Origin: Janthinobacterium sp. 17J80-10 | GTDB taxonomy: Bacteria > Pseudomonadota > Gammaproteobacteria > Burkholderiales > Burkholderiaceae_D | Direction: 5' to 3' | Length of the DNA stretch: 64,000 bases | NCBI RefSeq assembly: GCF_004114795.1 | Contig: NZ_CP035311.1 | Coordinates: 372,001-436,000 of the forward strand | Part shown: piece after piece, positions 38,593 through 49,036 of the stretch | Layout of the letters: the number at the start of each line of letters is the position of its first letter | Position numbering within the stretch: position 1 is the stretch's first letter | Made by a program: the position numbers and the translations under genes | The notes under the pieces: generated by a model | The model's database searches: none | What the model saw: only the letters and a program-made list of their open reading frames with translations | Told to the model about the DNA's origin: nothing

Positions 38593-39498
38593 TCAAAGAC
38601 CATGAGGGGTTTGCGATTTGCAGTACACCCGCGCCACATTCAAAAAATTATGCAGGATGGGCGATTGGTCGTCATTCCGGTACAGGCAGCTCAGGTCCAC
38701 GGTCGGCGCCGGCACCTTCTTGATCGGCCGGTAAACCACATTGGGAATCTGCAGGGCGGTGGCTGACTCCGGCACCAGGCAGATGCCGAAGCCGCCGCCT
38801 ACCAGGGCAACGCCAGTGACGGCGTCAGCCACTTCCTGCGTTTCCTGCATATGGAAGCCTTCGGCGTGACAAAGTTCCATCACGTAGTCGATGAAATTCG
38901 GCCGCGAGGCGCTGGGGAATAACACCACAGGATTGCTTGCCAGTTCAGAGAATGCGATTTCCTTCTGCCGCGCCAGCGCATGGGTTTGATTCACGGCGAC
39001 ATAAAGCCGCTCGTTCATCAGCACTTCCGCCGTGATGTCCGGCGTGTCCCAGACCAGCCGGTTAAAGCCCACCGCCAGTGTGCGGTTTCGCAGCGCGTCG
39101 ATCTGCTCCTTCTTGCCCATCGTATGGAGCACGATTTTCACATCCGGATAGATGGTGCGGTAACTCAGCAGCAGTCCCGGGATCAGGCTCAGGATGCTGG
39201 AGCCGAAGATGCCGACATCGATACGGCCGAGTTGGCCGGCCTCGGCGCGCTGGGTCCGCTCGGTGGTCTGTTCGATCAGCGCAAAAATATTGCGCACACC
39301 GTCAAGAAACAACTGCCCGGCATCGGTCAACTCCATGCCCTTGGCGGTGCGCAAGAACAGCGTCGCGCCGATGGTTTCTTCCAGCAGCTGGATCTGACGC
39401 GTCAGCGGCGGCTGCGAGATATGCAGGCGCGCTGCAGCGCGGCCCATGTTCGACTCTTCGGCGACCGCCATGAAGTACTTAAGCTGACGAAAATCCAT
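38593..39498 (-). CDS. LysR-type transcriptional regulator (CatM/BenM/CatR-like)
   Basis: The 301-residue protein begins MDFRQLKYFMAVAEESNMGR with the LysR winged helix (RLHISQPPLTRQIQLLE) and continues with an effector-binding domain (about 90-295). The HTH and the PLTRQI linker are close to the CatM/BenM/ClcR group that responds to muconates. The ATG at 39498 is the family start; the frame reaches ten codons further upstream. It diverges from the meta-pathway operon and a perfect ATAC-N7-GTAT site lies between them, 25 bp upstream of its start. Confidence 0.9.
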   Translation of the reverse strand: MDFRQLKYFMAVAEESNMGRAAARLHISQPPLTRQIQLLEETIGATLFLRTAKGMELTDAGQLFLDGVRNIFALIEQTTERTQRAEAGQLGRIDVGIFGSSILSLIPGLLLSYRTIYPDVKIVLHTMGKKEQIDALRNRTLAVGFNRLVWDTPDITAEVLMNERLYVAVNQTHALARQKEIAFSELASNPVVLFPSASRPNFIDYVMELCHAEGFHMQETQEVADAVTGVALVGGGFGICLVPESATALQIPNVVYRPIKKVPAPTVDLSCLYRNDDQSPILHNFLNVARVYCKSQTPHGL

Positions 39499-39522
39499 GA
39501 ACTGGCAAGTCTCTGGTGACGC

Positions 39523-39545
39523 TCTCATACCATTTTTGTATGAGA
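39523..39545. promoter_or_regulatory. LysR-type operator, perfect ATAC-N7-GTAT palindrome
   Basis: TCTCATAC (39523-39530) and GTATGAGA (39538-39545) are perfect 8-base inverted arms around a 7-base spacer. The core ATAC-N7-GTAT is the binding site known for BenM and CatM. It sits between the divergent LysR gene and the operon. Confidence 0.8.
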
Positions 39546-39669: not shown

Positions 39670-39990
39670 ATGCAATTTTTAATTTTCCTGTACGACGCCA
39701 CAGATGCCGGTGCGCAAGAGCGCCGCGCCAGGATCCGCCCCGACCACCTCAAGCGCGCAGAGCATTTCCAGCATGCAAACCACCTGCTGATTGGCGGCGC
39801 ATTGCTGAATGACGCCGGCGACGTGATCGGCTCGGCTGCCGCAATCCAGTTCGACACCCGCGCCGAGCTCGACGAATGGTTCAACACCGATCCTTACAAG
39901 CTCGGCAATGTCTGGGCGCGCATGGAAGTGCACAACTTCCGCGTCGCGCCTCACTACAACATCCAGCCAATCATCAAGGAGACCCACTAA
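39670..39990 (+). CDS. YciI-family protein, first gene of the meta-pathway operon
   Basis: The 106-residue protein has the YciI core: MQFLIFLYDATDAGAQERR, RPDHLKRAEHFQHANHLLIG with a conserved His, and FDTRAELDEWFNTDPYKLGN. Members of this fold include dehydrochlorinases and putative isomerases. Its stop codon overlaps the start codon of the bicupin gene by one base, so the two are translationally coupled. It is a second YciI gene in a catabolic cluster of this window (the other is at 17258). Confidence 0.82.
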   Translation: MQFLIFLYDATDAGAQERRARIRPDHLKRAEHFQHANHLLIGGALLNDAGDVIGSAAAIQFDTRAELDEWFNTDPYKLGNVWARMEVHNFRVAPHYNIQPIIKETH

Positions 39991-40673
39991 TGGCAATCAA
40001 GGAAAATCTCAAGCTGCGCGTCGTGCACGACAAGCTGGAAGCCGGCGCCAGCATTACCCTGCGCCCTGAAATGCGTGTCGTGTACTGCCGCACCGGTACC
40101 GTCCGCATTATCGAAGGCGGCCGGCGTCGCATTCTTAGCGAAGACAATGCCCAGCTGGTGCAGGCCGAAACCATCATCGAAGCCGCCGTCGGCCCGGCAA
40201 CAGTCTGGCGTTGGGAACTGGTGCCGGTGGACTCTGACGACGCCGCCACGCTGTCACACGGCGCCGGCGTCGACAGTCAGAACAAGGGCGCGTACGCGCT
40301 GCCGCTGCCGGATGACGAGCGGCAGTTTGCTATCCGCTGCGACCAGGTCTCCTTCCCGCCAGGCGGCGAAGCGTTGACCCACATCCATGCGGCACCGGGC
40401 GTGCGATGCCTGCATACCGGCGAAATCTTCATCGATTCGCTCGGCAAACAGTGGACGGCAACGCCCGGCGTGACCTGGCTGGAACGCGGGCCGGAACATG
40501 TCTACGCCAAAACCTGGGATCAGGGTCCCGCCAATTTCATACGCGTGATGGTGATTCCGAGCGCGTATTCCGGCAAATCGACAATCTCTTACGTCAAGCC
40601 GGAAGACGCACAAAAGCCGAAGTCGCAGCAGTATTACCGCTACCTGGAAGAGGAAATCCAGCTGCCAGGCTAG
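39990..40673 (+). CDS. Bicupin protein, candidate dioxygenase or metal-dependent isomerase
   Basis: The 227-residue protein has two cupin halves. The C-terminal half carries the metal motif FPPGGEALTHIHAAPG near residue 118 (HxH), HTGEIF near 142 (Glu) and RGPEHVYA near 165 (His). The N-terminal half (MRVVYCRTGTVRIIEGG) lacks the histidines. It has no close resemblance to known ring-cleavage cupins that I recognise, but its place before the transport and meta-pathway genes makes it a candidate for a missing upper step. The function remains unknown. Confidence 0.72.
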   Translation: MAIKENLKLRVVHDKLEAGASITLRPEMRVVYCRTGTVRIIEGGRRRILSEDNAQLVQAETIIEAAVGPATVWRWELVPVDSDDAATLSHGAGVDSQNKGAYALPLPDDERQFAIRCDQVSFPPGGEALTHIHAAPGVRCLHTGEIFIDSLGKQWTATPGVTWLERGPEHVYAKTWDQGPANFIRVMVIPSAYSGKSTISYVKPEDAQKPKSQQYYRYLEEEIQLPG

Positions 40674-40705
40674 AGCGAGCAAGGGACATAAAAAATTCAA
40701 TTAAA

Positions 40706-40727
40706 AGGCCATGCTCGCACATGGCCT
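40706..40727 (+). other. Stem-loop before the ABC transporter ATPase gene
   Basis: AGGCCATG (40706-40713) pairs with CATGGCCT (40720-40727) around a 6-base loop, directly before the GGAG and ATG at 40738. It lacks a T run. It could regulate translation or mRNA processing of the transporter genes. Confidence 0.45.
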
Positions 40728-40737
40728 GGAGACAAAC

Positions 40738-41544
40738 ATGGTAGAGAACGTGGCACGGCTTATGCCCAACCCGGGGATAACGCCTTTCATTGAGGTGAAT
40801 AGCCTGGAGAAATGTTACGACACCCGTAACGGCCCCATCAATGCGGTCGAAAAGGTTTCGTTCAACGTCAGCAAAGGCGAGTTCATTTCCATCGTCGGCC
40901 CTTCCGGCTGCGGCAAAAGCACGCTGATGAAAATGATCGGCAAGCTTTTGAAGCCCACCAGTGGCTCGATCGAGTTCCATGGCTTGCCCGCCGGCGCTTC
41001 CAGCCCGGACCTCGGCATGGTATTCCAGGATGCAGTGCTGCTGCCATGGCGCACCGTTTTCCAGAATGTCTGCCTGCCGATCGAGGTGATGGGCCTGGAA
41101 CGGCGCAAGCATGAGCAGCGCGCCCGCGATCTGATCGAGCTGGTCGGGCTCAAGGGATTCGAGAACAAGTACCCGACCGAGCTGTCCGGCGGCATGCAGC
41201 AGCGCACATCGATTGCCCGGGCGCTGGTCAGCGACCCATCGCTGCTGCTGATGGACGAGCCCTTCGGTGCGCTCGATGCCCTGACGCGTGAAACCATGAC
41301 CCAGGAGCTCCAGCGGATCTGGATGGAGAGCAAAAAGACCGTGCTCTTCATTACCCACTCGATTCCCGAATCCGTGCTGCTGTCGGATCGTGTCGTCGTG
41401 ATGTCGGCCCGGCCGTCCCGGGTGCAGGAAATCATCGACATCGACTTGCCGCGTCCGCGCCAGCTGACCGACACCACCTCGATGGCTTTCGGCAAGTATG
41501 TCGCGCACATCCGCAGCCTGTTATCTGCCACTACGGAGTTATGA
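40738..41544 (+). CDS. ABC transporter ATP-binding protein (NitT/TauT type)
   Basis: The 268-residue protein has Walker A GPSGCGKST near residue 55, signature LSGGMQQR near 148 and Walker B LLLMDEPFGALD near 168. I chose ATG 40738 because it has GGAG upstream; ATG 40711 lies within the hairpin. The family (with SsuB, TauB) imports nitrate, sulfonates, or aromatic acids. Its stop codon overlaps the permease start (ATGA). Confidence 0.92.
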   Translation: MVENVARLMPNPGITPFIEVNSLEKCYDTRNGPINAVEKVSFNVSKGEFISIVGPSGCGKSTLMKMIGKLLKPTSGSIEFHGLPAGASSPDLGMVFQDAVLLPWRTVFQNVCLPIEVMGLERRKHEQRARDLIELVGLKGFENKYPTELSGGMQQRTSIARALVSDPSLLLMDEPFGALDALTRETMTQELQRIWMESKKTVLFITHSIPESVLLSDRVVVMSARPSRVQEIIDIDLPRPRQLTDTTSMAFGKYVAHIRSLLSATTEL

Positions 41545-42368
41545 ACGTCATGAACCAGGTCATATCAAACACCGCTACTCCTGTGCGCCGCTTGCCACGC
41601 TACGATCTTGGCAGCGTTCTCTCGATCGTGGTCGCCGTCATTCTGCTGGGCGGATGGGAGCTCAGCGTCCAGGCCGGATTGATCCCGGGTTACCTGCTGC
41701 CAGCGCCTTCCAAAGTCATCATGCAGTTATACGCAGATTTGACGCAGGAAAGCGTGCGCGTCGATATCTACTACACGCTGGCCGAGATCCTGCTGGGGTT
41801 TGCGCTTGCGACCGTGCTGGGGCTGATTTGCGGCGCCGCCATTGCACTGATTCCGATAGCCGACAAAATCCTGTCGCCCTACATCACCTGCTTGCAGACC
41901 ATTCCCAAGCCCGCGATTGCGCCGCTGCTGATCATCTGGTTCGGATTCGGCATCAGTTCCAAGGTCGTCATCGTGGCGCTGATCGCCTTTTACCCGATCG
42001 TGGTAAATGCGGTGGTGGGTTTTCGCGGCTCGGACCCGCGCCAGATCCTGCTGATGCGCGTGATGAAAGCCTCGCGCTGGCAAATCTTCCGCATGGTGCA
42101 GCTGCCGAACGCGCTTCCTTTCCTGATGGCCGGCCTGCAGATCGCCATGGTGTTTTCGGTGATCGGCGCGATCGTCGGCGAATTCCTCGGCGCATCCCGT
42201 GGCCTGGGCGCCTTGATCATCCAGCGGCAGTCGGCGATGGATGTGGCGGGCGTGTTTTCTGTGCTGGTAGTGCTCTCGACTGTCGGCATCGTTTTGAGCG
42301 TGATCATTAAAGCCCTTTCCAAAAAGCTGGTTTTCTGGGGCCCAGCGGAAGAAATTCGCGGCGTTTAA
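41541..42368 (+). CDS. ABC transporter permease (NitT/TauT type)
   Basis: The 275-residue protein has about six membrane helices and the permease EAA-loop-like segment (QILLMRVMKASRWQIFRMVQ near residue 170 and LPNALPFLMAGLQIAMV after it). It forms the membrane channel of the importer with the ATPase upstream and the binding protein downstream. Its start overlaps the ATPase stop by four bases. Confidence 0.92.
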   Translation: MNVMNQVISNTATPVRRLPRYDLGSVLSIVVAVILLGGWELSVQAGLIPGYLLPAPSKVIMQLYADLTQESVRVDIYYTLAEILLGFALATVLGLICGAAIALIPIADKILSPYITCLQTIPKPAIAPLLIIWFGFGISSKVVIVALIAFYPIVVNAVVGFRGSDPRQILLMRVMKASRWQIFRMVQLPNALPFLMAGLQIAMVFSVIGAIVGEFLGASRGLGALIIQRQSAMDVAGVFSVLVVLSTVGIVLSVIIKALSKKLVFWGPAEEIRGV

Positions 42369-42397
42369 AACTTACTCAAACTAATAACGGAGATGCA

Positions 42398-43477
42398 ATG
42401 AAAAACAACCTGATTCGCCATATCAAAAATTCGACCCTCACCTCGGTGGCGATCGCTCTCGCCTTCACAGGCGGCGCCGCGCAGGCCCAGACTAAGCTCA
42501 CGGTGCAGGGGGGTGCTCCGGTGCCGACCTATTCCCTGCTCCCGTTGTATGTCGGACAGCAGCTTGGTTATTTCAAGGCCGAGGGCATCGACCTGGAAAT
42601 TCGCAATACTGCCAATGCCTCGACCGCCGTGCAACTGATGGCCGCCAATAATGCCGACATTGCCCTCGCGACGGTCGAGCCGTTGCTGCTCGGCCAGGAT
42701 AGCGGTGTAAAGGCCAAGGTATTCCTGCAAAACCACAAGACGCTGATGTACAGCATCGGTGTACCGAAGGGATCAAACATCACGACGCCGGCCAGCCTCA
42801 AGGGCGCGAAGATTGGCGTCAGCAACCTCGGCAGTGCCTCGCTCACCGTGGCCAAGTCGATATTGTTAAGTGCAGGCATTACGCCCACCGCTGATACCTT
42901 CGTGCCGGTTGGCGTGGGCGACCAGGCTCTCACAGCGCTGCGCAACGGCAACGTGCAGGCATTGGCAATGTGGGACGTGATGTACGCAGCGATGGAGCGC
43001 AACGGCCAGCAATTCACCTACTTCACCCATCCGACCCTTGGTACGTTCGGCAATCTGGCCTCGATGGCATCGGACACCACCATTGCCACCAAGCAGAAGG
43101 CTCTGTGCGGCTATGGGCGGGCGCTGGCAAAAGCCTCGCTGTTCGCCGCTGAAAATCCGGAAGCTGCGGTGGAACTGTATTGGGATTTTAATCCCGCCGC
43201 ACGTGTTCCAGCCAGCAAACCTGAAGAGATTAAAAAAGCAGTCGTCGAATTGAAGTACATCGCCGATATCTTCAACGTCGGCTTCGGCCCCGGCGAAAAA
43301 TATGGCGTGATCGATGAAAATAAATTCAAGCAATATGCCGAGCTGCTCTACAAGGACAAAGGCACACCGGAAAAAACCCCGGCGATCTCCGCTGTCGCCA
43401 CCATGGCGCTGAATAACTGCATCAATGAATTCGACCGTGCAGCGGTACGCAAGGCGGCCAAAGAGTGGAAAAACTGA
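42398..43477 (+). CDS. ABC transporter substrate-binding protein (NMT1/THI5-like)
   Basis: The 359-residue protein has a signal peptide ending near AQAQT and a periplasmic-binding fold with [20 protein letters not shown] near residue 45 and [14 protein letters not shown] near 130. Such proteins bind sulfonates, pyrimidines or aromatic acids. It completes the transporter and probably recognises the substrate of this operon. GGAG precedes the ATG. Confidence 0.9.
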
Positions 43478-43493
43478 GCGCCAGGGGAACCAG

Positions 43494-44414
43494 ATGAAAA
43501 AAATTAAATGCGCCCTGATCGGTTCCGGCAACATCGGCACCGATCTGATCTACAAGCTGCAACGCAGCCCCTTGCTGGAACCGGTGTGGATGGTCGGCAT
43601 CGATGCCGATTCGGAGGGGCTCAAGCGTGCCCGCGAGATGGGCCTGAAGACCACCGCCGCAGGGCTCGACGGCCTGCTGCCGCATGTGCATGCAGACGGC
43701 ATCCAGATTGCTTTCGACGCCACTTCAGCCTACGTGCATGCCGATAATTCGCGCAAGCTCAATGCGCTGGGCGTGCTGATGATCGACCTGACGCCGGCGG
43801 CCATCGGCCCGCTGTGCGTTCCGCCGATCAACCTGCGCGAACATGCCGGCAAAGGGGAAATGAACGTCAACATGATTTCCTGCGCCGGGCAGGCGACGAT
43901 CCCGATGGTGTATGCGGTCTCCAGCATTCAACCGGTGAGCTACGGTGAAATCATCGCCAGCCTGTCGTCGAAATCGGTCGGCCCCGGCACGCGCAAGAAC
44001 CTCGACGAGTTCACTTACACCACGTCGGATGCGATTGAAAGAATCGGCGGCGCCAGGCTCGGCAAGGCAATGGCGATCATTAATCCGGCGGAACCGCCGA
44101 TGGTCATGCGTAACACGATCTATTGCGAGACCGATACGCTGCCCGATCAGGAAGCCATCACAAAGTCCGTGAAAGCCATGATCCTCGAGGTGCAGAAATA
44201 TGTGCCGGGTTACCGGCTGGTGAATGGTCCGGTGTTCGACGGCCACCAGGTCTCGATTTACATGGAAGTGACGGGGCTGGGCGATTTCCTGCCGACCTAT
44301 GCGGGCAACCTCGACATCATGACGGCTGCCGCCACGCGCACCGCTGAAATGTTTGCCGAAGAAATCAACGCCGGGCGTTTCAAAGCCCAACCGAAAACTA
44401 TGGAGCCAGCATGA
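43494..44414 (+). CDS. Acetaldehyde dehydrogenase (acetylating)
   Basis: The 306-residue protein begins [18 protein letters not shown] with a Rossmann motif; the frame runs upstream into the binding-protein gene but GGGGAA precedes this ATG. The catalytic Cys is in [13 protein letters not shown] near residue 129 and [13 protein letters not shown] is near the end. It oxidises acetaldehyde to acetyl-CoA with NAD and CoA, and in the family forms a channelling complex with the aldolase. Its stop overlaps the aldolase start by four bases, as for DmpF/DmpG. Confidence 0.94.
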
Positions 44415-45448
44415 TGTCACTCAAGGGAAGAAAGGTCATGTTGCATGACATGTGCCTGCGCGACGGCATGCATGCCAAACGTCATCAGATGACGCTGGAT
44501 GAAATGGTGCGCGTGGCAACCGCGCTGGATGATGCCGGCGTGCCGCTGATCCAGGTCACGCATGGCGACGGCCTGGGTGGGGCGTCGCTCAACTACGGCC
44601 GCCCGCGCCATAGCAACGAGGAATACCTGAACGCGGTCATCCCCAAGCTCAAGCGCGCCAAGGTGTCCGTCCTGCTGGTGCCGGGTCTGGGCACCATGGA
44701 CCAGTTGCGTTCGGCGCGGGAATGCGGCGTGCACAGCGTCCATGTGGCGACCCATTGCACCGAAGCCGACGTCGCCGAGCAGCACATCGCCTACGCCCGC
44801 GGAATGGGCATGGACACCACCGGGTTCCTGATGATGTCGCACCTGAATTCGCCGGAAGGGCTGCTCAAGCAGGGCTTGCTGATGGAATCCTATGGCGCCA
44901 ACTGCATTTACGTGACCGACTCGGCCGGCTACATGCTGCCGGACGACGTACGCGCCCGCATTGCGCTGCTGCGCAATGCGCTGGACCCAAAGACGCAACT
45001 GGGCTTCCATGGCCACCATAACCTCGGCATGGGCATCGCCAATTCCATCGCGGCTATCGAAGCCGGCGCCAACCGTATCGATGGCTCGGTCGGCGGCCTT
45101 GGCGCCGGCGCCGGCAATACGCCACTGGAAGTGTTCGCCGCCGTGTGCGAACGCATGGGCATTCATACCGGCGTTGACCTGTTCAAGATGATGGATGTGG
45201 CAGAAGACGTGATCCTGCCGCTGATGGACCAGCTGGTGCGGGTTGACCGCGAGTCGCTGACCATCGGTTATGCCGGGGTGTATTCGACCTTCCTGTTGTT
45301 CGCGCGCCGCGCTGCAGCCAAATACGGCGTGTCAGCGCGTGAAATCCTGATCGAACTTGGCAAGAAAAAGCTGATCGGCGGCCAGGAAGACATGATCGAA
45401 GACACCGCGATGACCATGGCCAAGGAACGCGGCCTGCTGCCGAGCTGA
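44411..45448 (+). CDS. 4-hydroxy-2-oxovalerate aldolase
   Basis: The 345-residue protein has the DmpG/BphI features: [16 protein letters not shown] near residue 12 (metal-binding Asp), [15 protein letters not shown] near 198 (metal-binding His pair) and [16 protein letters not shown] near 227. It cleaves 4-hydroxy-2-oxovalerate to pyruvate and acetaldehyde, which the preceding dehydrogenase takes over. It overlaps that gene by four bases. Confidence 0.95.
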
Positions 45449-45463
45449 GCGATTTTTTGGGAA

Positions 45464-46225
45464 ATGGCCATGAAAAATTATAAAGAGCTGGCAGTCGTCG
45501 TCGGCGCGACCGGATCGTTCGGCACGGAGATCGTCGCCGCGCTGACTGCCGCAGGACTTGGCGTGGTTGCCGTGGCGAGGACAGAAACTTCGCTGGCCTC
45601 GTTGCAGGAACGCTTTCCCGATCTGATTCCGTGCGCGGCCGACATTGCTAACGACAGTTCGATCGAGAAGATCCGTACCGTGCTGGACCGGCCGGTACGG
45701 ATGGTTGTGCATGGCCCCGGCGTGGCGGTCGCCGGCGGCATCCTGGCGGCACCGACCTCGGCGGTGGTCGATTCGGTCAACATCAAGGTAGGCGGCATGT
45801 TGCGCCTGGCGCGCGCCGTGGATGCACGGCTGGCGCCGCATTCACGGCTGGTCGCCATTGGCGGCCACTATGGCCTGGAGCCGACCGCCTATGCGGCGGC
45901 GGCTGGCATTGCCAATGCCGCCCTGATCAACCTGATGCGCCAGTTAAGCCTGGCCTACGGCGAACGCGGCGTGACGGCCCATCTGATCGCGCCCGGCCCG
46001 GCCGATACCGAACGCCTGCATCGCGTCGCCGCTGACCGCGCCGCCAGCCGTGGCATCAGCGTCGAGCAGGTATTGACCGAGATGAAGGCAGAATCCTCCA
46101 TCAAGGCATTCACCACGCCGAAGCAGGTCGCCTGGGCAGTCGCCACACTGCTGGCGGAAGAAGCAGACTCAATGACCGGTTCCACCCTCATGCTCGATTC
46201 CGGACGCCGGCGCGGCCTGCCTTGA
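45464..46225 (+). CDS. SDR-fold protein lacking the catalytic Ser and Lys
   Basis: The 253-residue protein has an SDR Rossmann motif (VVVGATGSFGTEIV near residue 10) and an SDR ending (SMTGSTLMLDSGRRRG). The active-site strand reads VAIGGHYG where classical SDRs carry Ser, and the helix reads AYAAAAGIANAAL where YxxxK is expected, so Ser and Lys are both missing and only the Tyr remains. It may be catalytically dead, or an atypical enzyme. The Met at 45470 is an alternative start. Confidence 0.78.
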   Translation: MAMKNYKELAVVVGATGSFGTEIVAALTAAGLGVVAVARTETSLASLQERFPDLIPCAADIANDSSIEKIRTVLDRPVRMVVHGPGVAVAGGILAAPTSAVVDSVNIKVGGMLRLARAVDARLAPHSRLVAIGGHYGLEPTAYAAAAGIANAALINLMRQLSLAYGERGVTAHLIAPGPADTERLHRVAADRAASRGISVEQVLTEMKAESSIKAFTTPKQVAWAVATLLAEEADSMTGSTLMLDSGRRRGLP

Positions 46226-46250
46226 ATCGCGAAAAAAACGGAGACATTTC

Positions 46251-46670
46251 ATGCCAGTCATTAATTTTCATATTGTCGAAGACAAGTACACACAAGGCCA
46301 GCTGGAATGCCTGCTGCTGGAGTCGAGCAAGCTCTACGCGGAAGTTCTGAATGCGCCGATGGAGCGGGTGCGTGCTTTCGTCACGCTGCACAAGAAATCG
46401 CTGTTCGCCGTCGCAGGAAAAATGGTTTCCTCCGGCCAGGCCGATGCGCCCTATTTCAGCTTCATCGTACTGGAAGGTCGTCCGCTTGAAGAACGTCATC
46501 GGCTGCTGACCGGCTTCACCGAGTTGGTCGTCGATATCCTGGGCGCCAGGCGTGAACTGGTGCGTGGCGGCTGCACACCGATTCATCCGGAAAACTGGTG
46601 CATTGGCGGCGCACCTGCCAGCGTGGTGCGCAAAACTGAAATACGTGCTCGCGACCAGAGCGTGTCCTGA
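46251..46670 (+). CDS. Tautomerase-superfamily protein, longer than 4-oxalocrotonate tautomerase
   Basis: The 139-residue product begins MPVINFHIVE, so after removal of Met it exposes the catalytic Pro1 of the tautomerase superfamily. At 138 residues it is about twice the length of classical 4-oxalocrotonate tautomerase (about 62), matching the MSAD/cis-CaaD branch or a fused tautomerase. In the operon it would ketonise 2-hydroxymuconate (4-oxalocrotonate) ahead of the decarboxylase. GGAGA precedes the ATG. Confidence 0.75.
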   Translation: MPVINFHIVEDKYTQGQLECLLLESSKLYAEVLNAPMERVRAFVTLHKKSLFAVAGKMVSSGQADAPYFSFIVLEGRPLEERHRLLTGFTELVVDILGARRELVRGGCTPIHPENWCIGGAPASVVRKTEIRARDQSVS

Positions 46671-46709
46671 GCCGGCATTTCCTTTTCCTAAATAACGATT
46701 TTAAAGATC

Positions 46710-47507
46710 ATGGATACCAAAAAAATAGAACAGTACGGAGACGAGCTGTACATGGCCTTCTTGCGCCAGACGACAGTTCCGCCGCTGCTGGAACGTGAGC
46801 CCGATATCACGATAGAAGATGCTTACAAAATCCAGAAGCGCATGGTGGATCGCCGGGTCGCGGCGGGCGAGAAAATCGTCGGCAAGAAAATCGGCGTCAC
46901 CAGCAAAGCGGTGCAGGATTTTCTTGGTGTATTCCAGCCCGACTTCGGTCAGCTCACCTCGGGCATGATTTATCAGGAAGGTGACACCATCGATCTTGGT
47001 AACCTCATTCAGCCCAAAGCGGAGGCCGAACTGGCATTCGTGTTGAAGGAAGACTTGAAAGGGCCGGGCATCACCGCGATGGACGTGATCCGCGCGACCG
47101 ATTATGTGGTGCCTTGCTTCGAGATCGTCGATTCGCGCATCAAGGACTGGAACATCAAGATTCAGGACACCGTTGCGGACAATGCGTCTTGTGGCGTCTA
47201 CGTCCTGGGTAAGACGAGGGGTGATCCACGGGTACTGGATATCACCATGGCTGGCATGGTGCTGGAAAAAAATGGCGAACTGTTTTCCACCGGTGTCGGT
47301 GCTGCCGTGCAGGGCTCCCCGGCCAATGCGGTTGCCTGGCTGGCCAATACGCTGGGCGCGTTGGGGATTCCATTCAAGGCGGGTGAAGTGATCCTCTCCG
47401 GTTCACAGTCTGCGCTGGTACCTGTCGTCGACGGCGACGAACTCGTATGCACCGTCGGCGGCCTCGGCAGCTGCCATGTCAAATTTGCAGGAAGGAGCGC
47501 AGCATGA
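46710..47507 (+). CDS. 2-oxopent-4-enoate hydratase / 4-oxalocrotonate decarboxylase family, hydratase-like
   Basis: The 265-residue protein belongs to the DmpE/DmpH/MhpD family: KIVGKKIGVTSKAVQ near residue 55, PKAEAELAFVL near 102 (metal-binding Glu pair) and ATDYVVPCFEIVDSRI near 130. The GKKIGVTSKAVQDFLGV form fits the hydratase member. It adds water to 2-oxopent-4-enoate, giving the aldolase substrate. It overlaps the start of the decarboxylase gene by four bases (ATG at 47504). Confidence 0.88.
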   Translation: MDTKKIEQYGDELYMAFLRQTTVPPLLEREPDITIEDAYKIQKRMVDRRVAAGEKIVGKKIGVTSKAVQDFLGVFQPDFGQLTSGMIYQEGDTIDLGNLIQPKAEAELAFVLKEDLKGPGITAMDVIRATDYVVPCFEIVDSRIKDWNIKIQDTVADNASCGVYVLGKTRGDPRVLDITMAGMVLEKNGELFSTGVGAAVQGSPANAVAWLANTLGALGIPFKAGEVILSGSQSALVPVVDGDELVCTVGGLGSCHVKFAGRSAA

Positions 47508-48301
47508 GTACCCCTACATTATCTCGCGAAGAAGTTGTTCGTTTGACCGAGCGCGTTGAAGGCGCGCAAATTCGCGCTTATGAAATTCCCAAGCTGACCG
47601 AGGAATATCCGGGCATGAACATCGCCGATGGCTATGCGGTGCAAAAGGAATTGCGTCAGCGTTCGATTGCGCGTGGAAATCGCCTGATCGGCTGGAAGGT
47701 CGGCCTGACTTCCAAAGCCAAGATGGTCCAGATGGGCATCCATGAACCGAGCATCGGCTTTCTGATGAATGACATGGCCTGTCCGGAGAATTCAGCGATC
47801 GACATCTCGAAACTGGTGCATCCGCGCGTCGAATGCGAAGTTGCATTTGTGACGAAAAAGGACTTGCAGGGTCCGAACTGCACTAAAGAACAGGTGCTCG
47901 ATGCGACCGACTTCGTGCTGCCGGCGATCGAAGTCATCGACTCGCGCTTCAAGGCCTTCAAGTTCGACCTGCCCAGCGTAATTGCCGATAACGGCTCCAG
48001 CGCCCGGGTTGTCAGCGGTGGCCGGGCGCGTTATCCCCAGGATGTCGATTTGCGTACGCTGGGCGCAGTGATGGAAAAGAACGGCGAGATTGTTTCACTC
48101 GGGGCTTCTGCCGCGGTGCTCGGTCATCCTGCAGAAGCCATCGCTTGCCTTGTCAATATCCTCAGTACCCAGGGCGAGACCCTGCCGGCAGGTAGTTTTG
48201 TGATGAGCGGCGGCATTACCGAAGCGATTCACGTGAAAGCCGGCGACAGCATCATCGCGCGATTCCAGGAGCTGGGCAGTGTGTCGGTGCGTTTTGTCTA
48301 A
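47504..48301 (+). CDS. 2-oxo-3-hexenedioate (4-oxalocrotonate) decarboxylase
   Basis: The 265-residue protein is a homologue of the previous gene, with LIGWKVGLTSKAKMVQMGI near residue 62, HPRVECEVAFVTKKDL near 106 and ATDFVLPAIEVIDSRF near 135. The GWKVGLTSKAKM form is that of DmpH/XylI decarboxylases, which act as a complex with the hydratase. AGGAG precedes the ATG at 47504, inside the 3' end of the hydratase gene; a longer frame starts at 47447 but is less likely. Confidence 0.88.
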   Translation: MSTPTLSREEVVRLTERVEGAQIRAYEIPKLTEEYPGMNIADGYAVQKELRQRSIARGNRLIGWKVGLTSKAKMVQMGIHEPSIGFLMNDMACPENSAIDISKLVHPRVECEVAFVTKKDLQGPNCTKEQVLDATDFVLPAIEVIDSRFKAFKFDLPSVIADNGSSARVVSGGRARYPQDVDLRTLGAVMEKNGEIVSLGASAAVLGHPAEAIACLVNILSTQGETLPAGSFVMSGGITEAIHVKAGDSIIARFQELGSVSVRFV

Positions 48302-48313
48302 AGGCGGATATCC

Positions 48314-49036
48314 ATGAAAGTCCTGATCGTCTTTGCGCATAACGAAGAAAAGTCTTTCAACACCGCCATGAAAAACCTGGCGGTGGAGCGCCTGCGCAGC
48401 AATGGTCATGAAGTCATCGTCTCCGATTTGTATGCGATGAAGTTCAAGGCGGTCGCGGATGGCGACGATTTCCTTGAACGCGCCAACCCCGAGTACCTGG
48501 TGTACGCCATGGAACAGCGCCTCGCCTATAAAAACGGCACGCTGGCGCCGGACATCATGGCTGAACTGGAAAAGGTGAAATGGGCTGACCTGATCATCTT
48601 TAACTTTCCGATTTACTGGTATTCAATGCCGGCGATCATGAAAGGCTGGGTCGATCGCGTGCTGGTGTCCGGCTACTGCTATGGTGGGATGCGGTTCTAT
48701 GACCGGGGCGGGCTGGCGGGGAAGAAAGCGCTGGTGGCGACCAGCCTGGGCGGGCAGCCACATATGTTCCAAAAGGGCAGTATTCACGGCGAGCTTGAGC
48801 TGATGCTGAAGCCCATTTTGCAGGGCACGCTCGCCTATACGGGTTTGGCTGTGCTGCCGCCGTTTGTGGCGTTTCATGTACCGTATGTTTCGGCTGAGGC
48901 GCGCGCCCGATATCTGGATGACTATACAGCGCGCTTGGATGCGCTGGCGTTAGCTGAGGCGCTGCGGTTTCCCAGCATGGATGACTTCGATGAGAAATTG
49001 CATCCCAGGGCGGCGATGTCTGCTGCGACCGGTTAA
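48314..49036 (+). CDS. Flavodoxin-fold NAD(P)H quinone reductase-like protein
   Basis: The 240-residue protein has the flavodoxin_2/NQO fold: MKVLIVFAHNEEKSFNTAM at the start, IFNFPIYWYSMPAIMKGWVDR near residue 96 (FMN/FAD-binding region) and ALVATSLGGQPHMFQKG near 145. Members reduce quinones, azo or nitro groups with NAD(P)H. As the last gene of the operon it may reduce a quinone-type starting compound or protect against quinone side products. Confidence 0.85.
   Translation: MKVLIVFAHNEEKSFNTAMKNLAVERLRSNGHEVIVSDLYAMKFKAVADGDDFLERANPEYLVYAMEQRLAYKNGTLAPDIMAELEKVKWADLIIFNFPIYWYSMPAIMKGWVDRVLVSGYCYGGMRFYDRGGLAGKKALVATSLGGQPHMFQKGSIHGELELMLKPILQGTLAYTGLAVLPPFVAFHVPYVSAEARARYLDDYTARLDALALAEALRFPSMDDFDEKLHPRAAMSAATG

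Follow-up and report, generated by a model that had tools for sequence, protein, structure and literature searches.

Within the window analysed here (a stretch of 64,000 nucleotides of Janthinobacterium sp. 17J80-10, NZ_CP035311.1, positions 372,001 to 436,000), a 12-gene operon on the + strand (39670-49036) combines the lower part of a meta-cleavage pathway with a gene for a bicupin, a two-barrel protein of the cupin fold. Its genes follow one another in the order YciI, bicupin, ABC ATPase, ABC permease, NMT1-type binding protein, acetaldehyde dehydrogenase (AADH), aldolase, SDR, tautomerase, DmpE, DmpH, and quinone reductase (Table 1). The lower pathway is ordinary and the entry part is new: the bicupin is probably the entry enzyme, and the operon likely represents a new entry route into the meta lower pathway. 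As a whole, our best explanation, which we put forward tentatively, is a dedicated catabolic operon fed by a pyrogallol-type cleavage, in which the bicupin would stand in for both the extradiol dioxygenase and the semialdehyde dehydrogenase.

A prediction made earlier from the letters of this DNA (hereafter the original prediction) had reported that catechol 2,3-dioxygenase (C23O), semialdehyde dehydrogenase, and hydrolase were missing from the block. This was borne out: we found no ring-cleavage dioxygenase, no semialdehyde dehydrogenase, and no semialdehyde hydrolase in 39670-49036, and neither a C23O-type protein nor a semialdehyde dehydrogenase over cut-off was found in the genome, a single contig of 4.02 Mb, the hydrolase having been sought in the block only. 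The genome search for a C23O-type protein yielded ten matches of glyoxalase fold, nine of them open frames of 121-185 amino acids, to be compared with 310-311 for the C23Os of two relatives; the single long frame corresponded to 4-hydroxyphenylpyruvate dioxygenase (406 bits, cut-off 277). No protein passed the cut-off of the semialdehyde dehydrogenase model TIGR03216, the best one reaching 424 of 693 bits, and three aldehyde dehydrogenases (ALDHs) from related genomes scored 877-881 bits. We thus rejected the idea that the two enzymes are encoded elsewhere in the genome. We also rejected the second aldolase/AADH pair (L133, ~2.932 Mb) as the site of these genes since no extradiol dioxygenase match was present within the 85 kb read around it (2.890-2.975 Mb). 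Its neighbors are a permease-like gene, which had no match in Pfam, and a two-component system identified by eye. Catechol 1,2-dioxygenase was not retained as part of the route because the single intradiol dioxygenase gene of the genome adjoins a muconate-lactonizing-type gene; it is located ~2.5 Mb from the block along the contig and ~35 kb from the second aldolase/AADH pair. The only LigB protein of the genome most resembles 4,5-DOPA extradiol dioxygenase (206 bits, under the cut-off of 233); after its gene (L114, ~3.468 Mb) come an esterase-like and a DmpH-like FAH-family gene, both named by eye.

A reverse test, in which DmpH was sought in 195 genomes of the window's family, gave matches with E no higher than 1e-80 at 33 places, spread over 27 genomes. 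Four of these were bicupin loci (the window, L020, L021, and L022) and the other 29 were fetched, no bicupin being found in any of them. By tblastn with one probe each, an ALDH of the semialdehyde dehydrogenase type was detected in 22 of the 29 (L164, where the aldolase is missing, has a 30%-identical one that was not counted and would make 23) and a C23O-like gene (XylE probe, at least 40% identity) in 17, all among the 22, with one further weak match; neither gene was detected in the four bicupin loci. Family models confirmed the ALDH in L161, L162, and L140 only, and the dioxygenase in the first two of them. Contigs end near the block in L145, L150, L152, L154, L159, and L163. For the ALDH, Fisher's test gave p = 0.008 over all 33 places, which are not phylogenetically independent, and p 0.0003 once six of the seven loci lacking the dehydrogenase were set aside, four of them truncated and two having a DmpH-like gene but no aldolase.

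The same replacement was observed when starting from the bicupin. One scan of genome contigs recovered at least 215 bicupin relatives, of which the best 80 of 215 were read as loci; gene calls in fetched loci were composition-based and our own, and names given without a model were assigned by eye. The bicupin is rare among the family and phylum genomes scanned, with 5 of 195 in the family (the window's included; one weak) and 7 of 398 in the phylum (the window's included; three partial or weak). Among the 80 loci, aldolase and AADH were present within the fetched DNA in nine (L034, L043, L064, L068, L069, L076, L077, L078, and L096), L087 had DmpE and DmpH only and L071 DmpH only. Ten stretches around further bicupin matches contained the block in four cases, L020 (Paucimonas lemoignei again), L021, L022, and L030; L023 and L031-L033 held partial or weak bicupin relatives only, L032 and L033 having been read in part. 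The nearest relative among the best 80 of 215, 90% identical, came from P. lemoignei DSM 7445 (L034), of the same genus.

We compared 13 bicupin/meta loci other than the window, 12 with aldolase and AADH plus L087. The ALDH was present in none of them and a C23O/HpaD-like gene in one. The bicupin was the one unexplained recurring enzyme in the loci read in detail, and 4-oxalocrotonate, the substrate of DmpH, was their common intermediate. The same type of MFS transporter was present in 11 of the 13, and a TRAP system in L096, whose binding protein gave no helpful lead. Only one locus, that of P. lemoignei, yielded relatives of the YciI, SDR, and quinone reductase of the window, the SDR of L087 being unrelated to that of the window and L096 having an FMN-reductase gene. 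When searched in other genomes, as the original prediction had proposed, the lower block therefore occurs mostly with semialdehyde dehydrogenase and C23O, or else with the bicupin, L096 being a partial exception. This pairing favors the new entry route that had been suggested over lost or distant upper genes, but YciI, the SDR, and the reductase were not supported as general parts of that route. YciI was likewise rejected as a universal partner, its gene having been found immediately next to a bicupin in the window and P. lemoignei only. A NIPSNAP domain (PF07978) is encoded upstream of the bicupin, at the place of YciI, in L042, L050, L067, and L107, which hints that a small barrel-type partner recurs in some lineages.

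Phylogenetic analyses of the aldolase and the bicupin suggested that this combination was assembled repeatedly. The window aldolase fell (100/100) among those of phenol operons from the same genus and family that carry C23O and semialdehyde dehydrogenase; it was 69% identical to those of L021 and L022 and 51-55% to those of the bicupin loci of Lysobacterales, Alloalcanivorax, Azospirillum, and L030. In this tree, the bicupin label needed four changes, at least three of which were forced by well-supported branches. Of the 14 bicupin/meta rows, the bicupin tree placed 12 in a clade of 27 rows (100/100); the window and P. lemoignei fell outside of it, grouped with L035 and L036 (100/100). A warning of long branches applies to the window group in this tree, and one deep fork is weak (69/89). 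L112 (a row with a stop), L023, L029, and L031-L033 were left out of the tree and of the residue counts below. Both kinds of loci coexist in genome G112, with two dioxygenase operons and one bicupin locus. The label changes forced in the aldolase tree and the split bicupin tree thus show that bicupin and lower pathway were joined more than once, the family lying beside this pathway in at least three separate combinations. Of all the evidence for a bicupin that feeds the pathway, this convergence is the strongest. It also bears on the view that we are dealing with an ordinary lower meta pathway whose C23O and semialdehyde dehydrogenase genes lie at another place or have disappeared, the bicupin being an unrelated passenger. 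The window aldolase, AADH, and hydratase are indeed closest to phenol-operon genes that have those enzymes, and this kinship indicates that the ancestor probably had both, but no such enzymes were found in the genome, the whole operon is kept in P. lemoignei at 78-98% identity, and the combination arose separately in other families. Already disfavored, this explanation seems very improbable to us.

Under the bicupin-fed scheme, the imported compound, or a close derivative of it, would be converted in one bicupin step to 2-hydroxymuconate/4-oxalocrotonate, from which tautomerase, DmpH, DmpE, aldolase, and AADH would then produce CO2, pyruvate, and acetyl-CoA. The likeliest chemistry would be an O2-dependent C1-C2 cleavage of a 1,2,3-trihydroxybenzene (pyrogallol, or a pyrogallol carboxylate losing CO2), which we favored because its product is 2-hydroxymuconate directly, without semialdehyde dehydrogenase or hydrolase. 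The window's NQO-type reductase would re-reduce the autoxidized polyphenol and would thus fit a substrate of this kind. Gallate as the direct substrate was rejected by reasoning only, since on paper its product would lead to two pyruvates and leave acetaldehyde dehydrogenase idle. Formation of 2-hydroxymuconic acid from pyrogallol by a yeast catechol 1,2-dioxygenase, judged by absorbance, is reported in one study (PMC9204233). Taken by itself, pyrogallol-type ring cleavage by the bicupin is conceivable but doubtful. The broader proposal is rather unlikely, namely that the unnamed bicupin family includes a new class of ring-cleaving dioxygenases with a two-His-based site, which would convert a pyrogallol-type ring to 2-hydroxymuconate and would have repeatedly displaced C23O and semialdehyde dehydrogenase.

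No curated family matched the window bicupin over its cut-off, neither Pfam at E 0.001 nor NCBIfam at E 0.01 giving any match; at E 0.1, Cupin_2 appeared under its cut-off only (18.7 of 27.2 bits) and was matched by 48 of the 55 relatives scanned (best E 1e-8). Three single NCBIfam matches of relatives, at E 0.057-0.097, were taken as chance. The AlphaFold2 model displayed a two-barrel fold (predicted local distance difference test 94.3, predicted template modeling score 0.91). Its fold matches were bicupins of many functions, including DUF861 (1sfn, E 2.4e-10, 19% identity), quercetinase, BacB (Z 14.3, root mean square deviation 2.7 over 158 residues), oxalate decarboxylase, and salicylate and gentisate dioxygenases, with the DUF861 protein 1rc6 and AerE as further close folds; by structural Z score (up to 15), seed storage proteins headed the list, scoring as high as BacB. 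Since the matches span so many functions, the predicted fold identifies a bicupin and no specific reaction, and the absence of a family from these matches does not argue against it. A sequence search of solved structures with the bicupin alone returned nothing useful, and a search of plasmids gave no match. Our literature search (titles and abstract openings, subscription papers being mostly outside) found no paper describing this bicupin among those listed, which is weak evidence of absence.

Several observations weigh against an oxygenase that replaces the two classic enzymes, and the first come from the bicupin itself. Residues H131, H133, E165, W163, D118, D206, Q213, Y215, and four Arg (74, 116, 139, and 185) are invariant in 84 relatives. 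In the same alignment, the third metal-His position (motif 2) is Val171 in 84 of 84, the neighboring position 170 is Pro in 72 and His in one (the window itself), and Gly, Ile, or Val occupies the places of the motif-1 Glu (137/138) in all 84, with no Glu after the HxH pair. Ring-cleaving cupins of the classic type need a third metal ligand, their site consisting of three His or three His and one Glu. The original prediction had made its case depend on a bicupin that binds metal; as judged from the alignment, the canonical cupin metal site is incomplete, with only the invariant HxH pair retained, although two His residues assisted by E165 might form a site. The four invariant Arg, together with the DcaP-type porins encoded beside L030 and L064, would moreover suit a poly-acid or di-acid better than neutral pyrogallol.

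Other points on the same side come from the neighborhoods. Aldolase and AADH were absent from the fetched DNA in 71 of the 80 loci, some of them short, so that the bicupin family, taken overall, has other roles or depends on genes farther away. The nearest relatives of the window bicupin outside the genus (L035 and L036, 46% identical) adjoin an FAH-family hydrolase and not the meta pathway. The end of an HpaD-like dioxygenase gene lies at the edge of L096, a LigB gene is present in two of the 13 bicupin/meta loci (L022 and L077), and a glyoxalase-fold protein of 318 amino acids is encoded ~5 kb from the bicupin in L065. Two members of the 27-row clade, L054 and L063, have a LigB-type gene (PF02900; 8133-8795 and 2882-3631, respectively) and an amidohydrolase close to the bicupin but, as far as the fetched DNA reaches, no lower meta pathway, so that the bicupin there may act after, and not instead of, ring cleavage. 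Finally, the window tautomerase probe found no tautomerase in 12 of the 13 loci, although it also missed the ordinary one of L161.

These observations make a serious rival, if a somewhat unlikely one, of a bicupin that is not an oxygenase but a metal-assisted isomerase, hydrolase, deaminase, or decarboxylase, converting an imported ring-opened or heterocyclic acid (2-pyrone-6-carboxylate, 2-aminomuconate, or carboxy-2-hydroxymuconate, for example) to 4-oxalocrotonate. Such an enzyme would agree with the incomplete oxygenase-type site, the four Arg, and the proximity of the folds of 1sfn, 1rc6, BacB, AerE, and oxalate decarboxylase; the TRAP, ABC, and MFS importers and the DcaP porins suit acids, and the LigB-type genes near some bicupins could make a ring-opened acid of this kind. 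However, the proposed acids are, in our judgment, not obvious nutrients, a LigB gene was seen in just two of the 13 bicupin/meta loci, and the reaction is not told by the fold alone.

The diversity of bicupin neighborhoods raises another alternative, in which the bicupin would be an accessory protein (a ligand sensor, a stabilizer, or the catalyst of a side reaction) and the true entry enzyme YciI, the SDR, or the unlinked LigB protein or catechol 1,2-dioxygenase. Bicupin genes were indeed recovered beside importers of the branched-chain amino acid (BCAA) ABC type, TRAP, TctC, a thiamine pyrophosphate (TPP) enzyme, and an FAH hydrolase (names partly by eye). The window's genome does encode one LigB protein, with the DmpH-like FAH-family gene two genes on, as well as one intradiol dioxygenase, an enzyme type for which pyrogallol cleavage to 2-hydroxymuconate is reported in yeast (PMC9204233). 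The intradiol gene is nevertheless far from the block and beside its muconate-lactonizing-type neighbor, and among the 13 other bicupin/meta loci, just one was found to have relatives of its YciI, SDR, and quinone reductase genes; we consider this alternative improbable. The bicupin as entry enzyme remains our preferred reading.

Some further neighborhoods are worth recording. In L037, L041, and L050, a TPP enzyme (in L037 of the PRK08199 model) comes after the bicupin, with an aldehyde dehydrogenase and a BCAA-type importer, and the substrate is likely different. Near the bicupin of L060 (11527-16321) are several genes resembling, by eye, 4,5-dihydroxyphthalate decarboxylase and LigJ/LigI; one Pht5-like protein was scanned without a Pfam match. 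Amidohydrolases of PF04909, a family that includes aromatic-acid decarboxylases and whose members could make or use the bicupin's substrate, are encoded near bicupins in L021 (3305-4348), L054 (7036-7917), and L096 (11760-12605). An IclR gene is nearby in 24 of the 27 rows of the large bicupin clade, and the L030 IclR and MFS proteins (one each scanned) came near the PcaR/PcaU/PobR and aromatic acid/H+ symport models, respectively, both under cut-off.

The genes named by the original prediction were open and intact where it had placed them, and family models back the pathway names. Its list did not mention the SDR gene, and its "flavin reductase" turned out to be the NQO1/NQO2-type quinone reductase. 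The candidate LysR site upstream of YciI reads CTCATAC-N7-GTATGAG in the window and CCCATAC-N7-GTATGGG in P. lemoignei (L034), both arms being altered together, as would be expected of a regulator site. Import of a sulfonate was rejected as the main idea since the SsuA-family match reached 58 of 164 bits and no sulfite gene was recognized in the block; solved relatives of the NMT1/THI5-type binding protein indicated no clear ligand. The tautomerase is a double protein with 4-OT-like matches at residues 1-60 and 73-127, and the related phenol operons L161 and L162 have a short one of ~80 amino acids (by eye).

Table 1. Genes and candidate operator of the bicupin operon (window positions; aa, amino acids).
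Feature	Position	Strand	Basis or remark
LysR-type regulator, divergent	38593..39528	-	Model scores AlsR/BenM/CatM-like, each below cut-off
Candidate LysR operator, inverted repeat	39524..39544	.	Between LysR and YciI; putative binding
YciI (YCII domain), 106 aa	39670..39990	+	Family model
Bicupin, 227 aa, candidate entry enzyme	39990..40673	+	ATG at 39990 overlaps YciI stop codon
ABC importer ATPase	40711..41544	+	Family model
ABC importer permease	41541..42368	+	Family model
NMT1/THI5-type substrate-binding protein	42398..43477	+	Family model
Acylating acetaldehyde dehydrogenase (AADH)	43425..44414, likely start ~43494	+	TIGR03215, 448 bits, over cut-off
4-hydroxy-2-oxovalerate aldolase (DmpG type)	44411..45448	+	TIGR03217, 552 bits, over cut-off
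SDR oxidoreductase	45464..46225	+	Absent from the original prediction's list
Double 4-oxalocrotonate tautomerase-like protein, 139 aa	46251..46670	+	Family model 53 of 57 bits, just under cut-off
2-oxopent-4-enoate hydratase (DmpE)	46710..47507	+	TIGR03220, 449 bits, over cut-off
2-oxo-3-hexenedioate (4-oxalocrotonate) decarboxylase (DmpH)	47447..48301, likely start ~47504	+	TIGR03218, 413 bits, over cut-off
NQO1/NQO2-type NAD(P)H quinone reductase	48314..49036	+	phmmer E 1e-53 to 1qrd, residues 2-226

If our interpretation is correct, the operon points to a specific gene for entering the meta pathway without two of its classic enzymes. Even with a wrong substrate guess, a widespread family for which we found no curated name gains a testable product, 4-oxalocrotonate. 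A 2019 paper on syringol use called for a dioxygenase cleaving pyrogallol to a product that can be metabolized further, and considered that complete assimilation might work given efficient cleavage of pyrogallol to 2-hydroxymuconate (PMC6628648).

Compared with known systems, the window shares DmpE, DmpH, aldolase, and AADH with catechol meta operons of the dmp/xyl/aph type. The closest examples, L161 (G062, same genus) and L162 (G112), are 85-87% identical to it in the aldolase, 79-81% in AADH, 81-83% in the hydratase, and 67-69% in the decarboxylase; both have C23O and semialdehyde dehydrogenase over cut-off, and L161 also has phenol hydroxylase subunits. In contrast to L161, the window lacks C23O (TIGR03211), the TIGR03216 dehydrogenase, and phenol hydroxylase, and has instead the bicupin, YciI, the ABC importer, the SDR, the double tautomerase, and the quinone reductase. 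With ring-cleaving cupins (salicylate and gentisate 1,2-dioxygenases, quercetinase, and Dke1), the bicupin has the fold in common but no significant sequence match, its HxHxGPG motif aligning with that of the acetylacetone dioxygenase Dke1 at a non-significant E of 0.4, and the third His and motif-1 Glu are those absent from the 84 relatives. BacB/AerE and DUF861 bicupins are small two-barrel cupins of similar length, but they belong to other pathways and are 8-19% identical to it. Routes to 2-hydroxymuconate without a semialdehyde dehydrogenase are described for the 3-chlorocatechol 2,3-dioxygenase CbzE and for 3-sulfocatechol 2,3-dioxygenase; these are however extradiol enzymes, and no C23O-type enzyme was found in the window's genome. 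Finally, pyrogallol 1,2-oxygenase (EC 1.13.11.35), known since the 1980s from work on resorcinol in Azotobacter, has oxalocrotonate as its product, and we know of no gene for it. This product is the substrate of the window block, and it is by pathway logic only that the bicupin is tied to this activity; should the pyrogallol reading be true, the bicupin would supply the gene for it.

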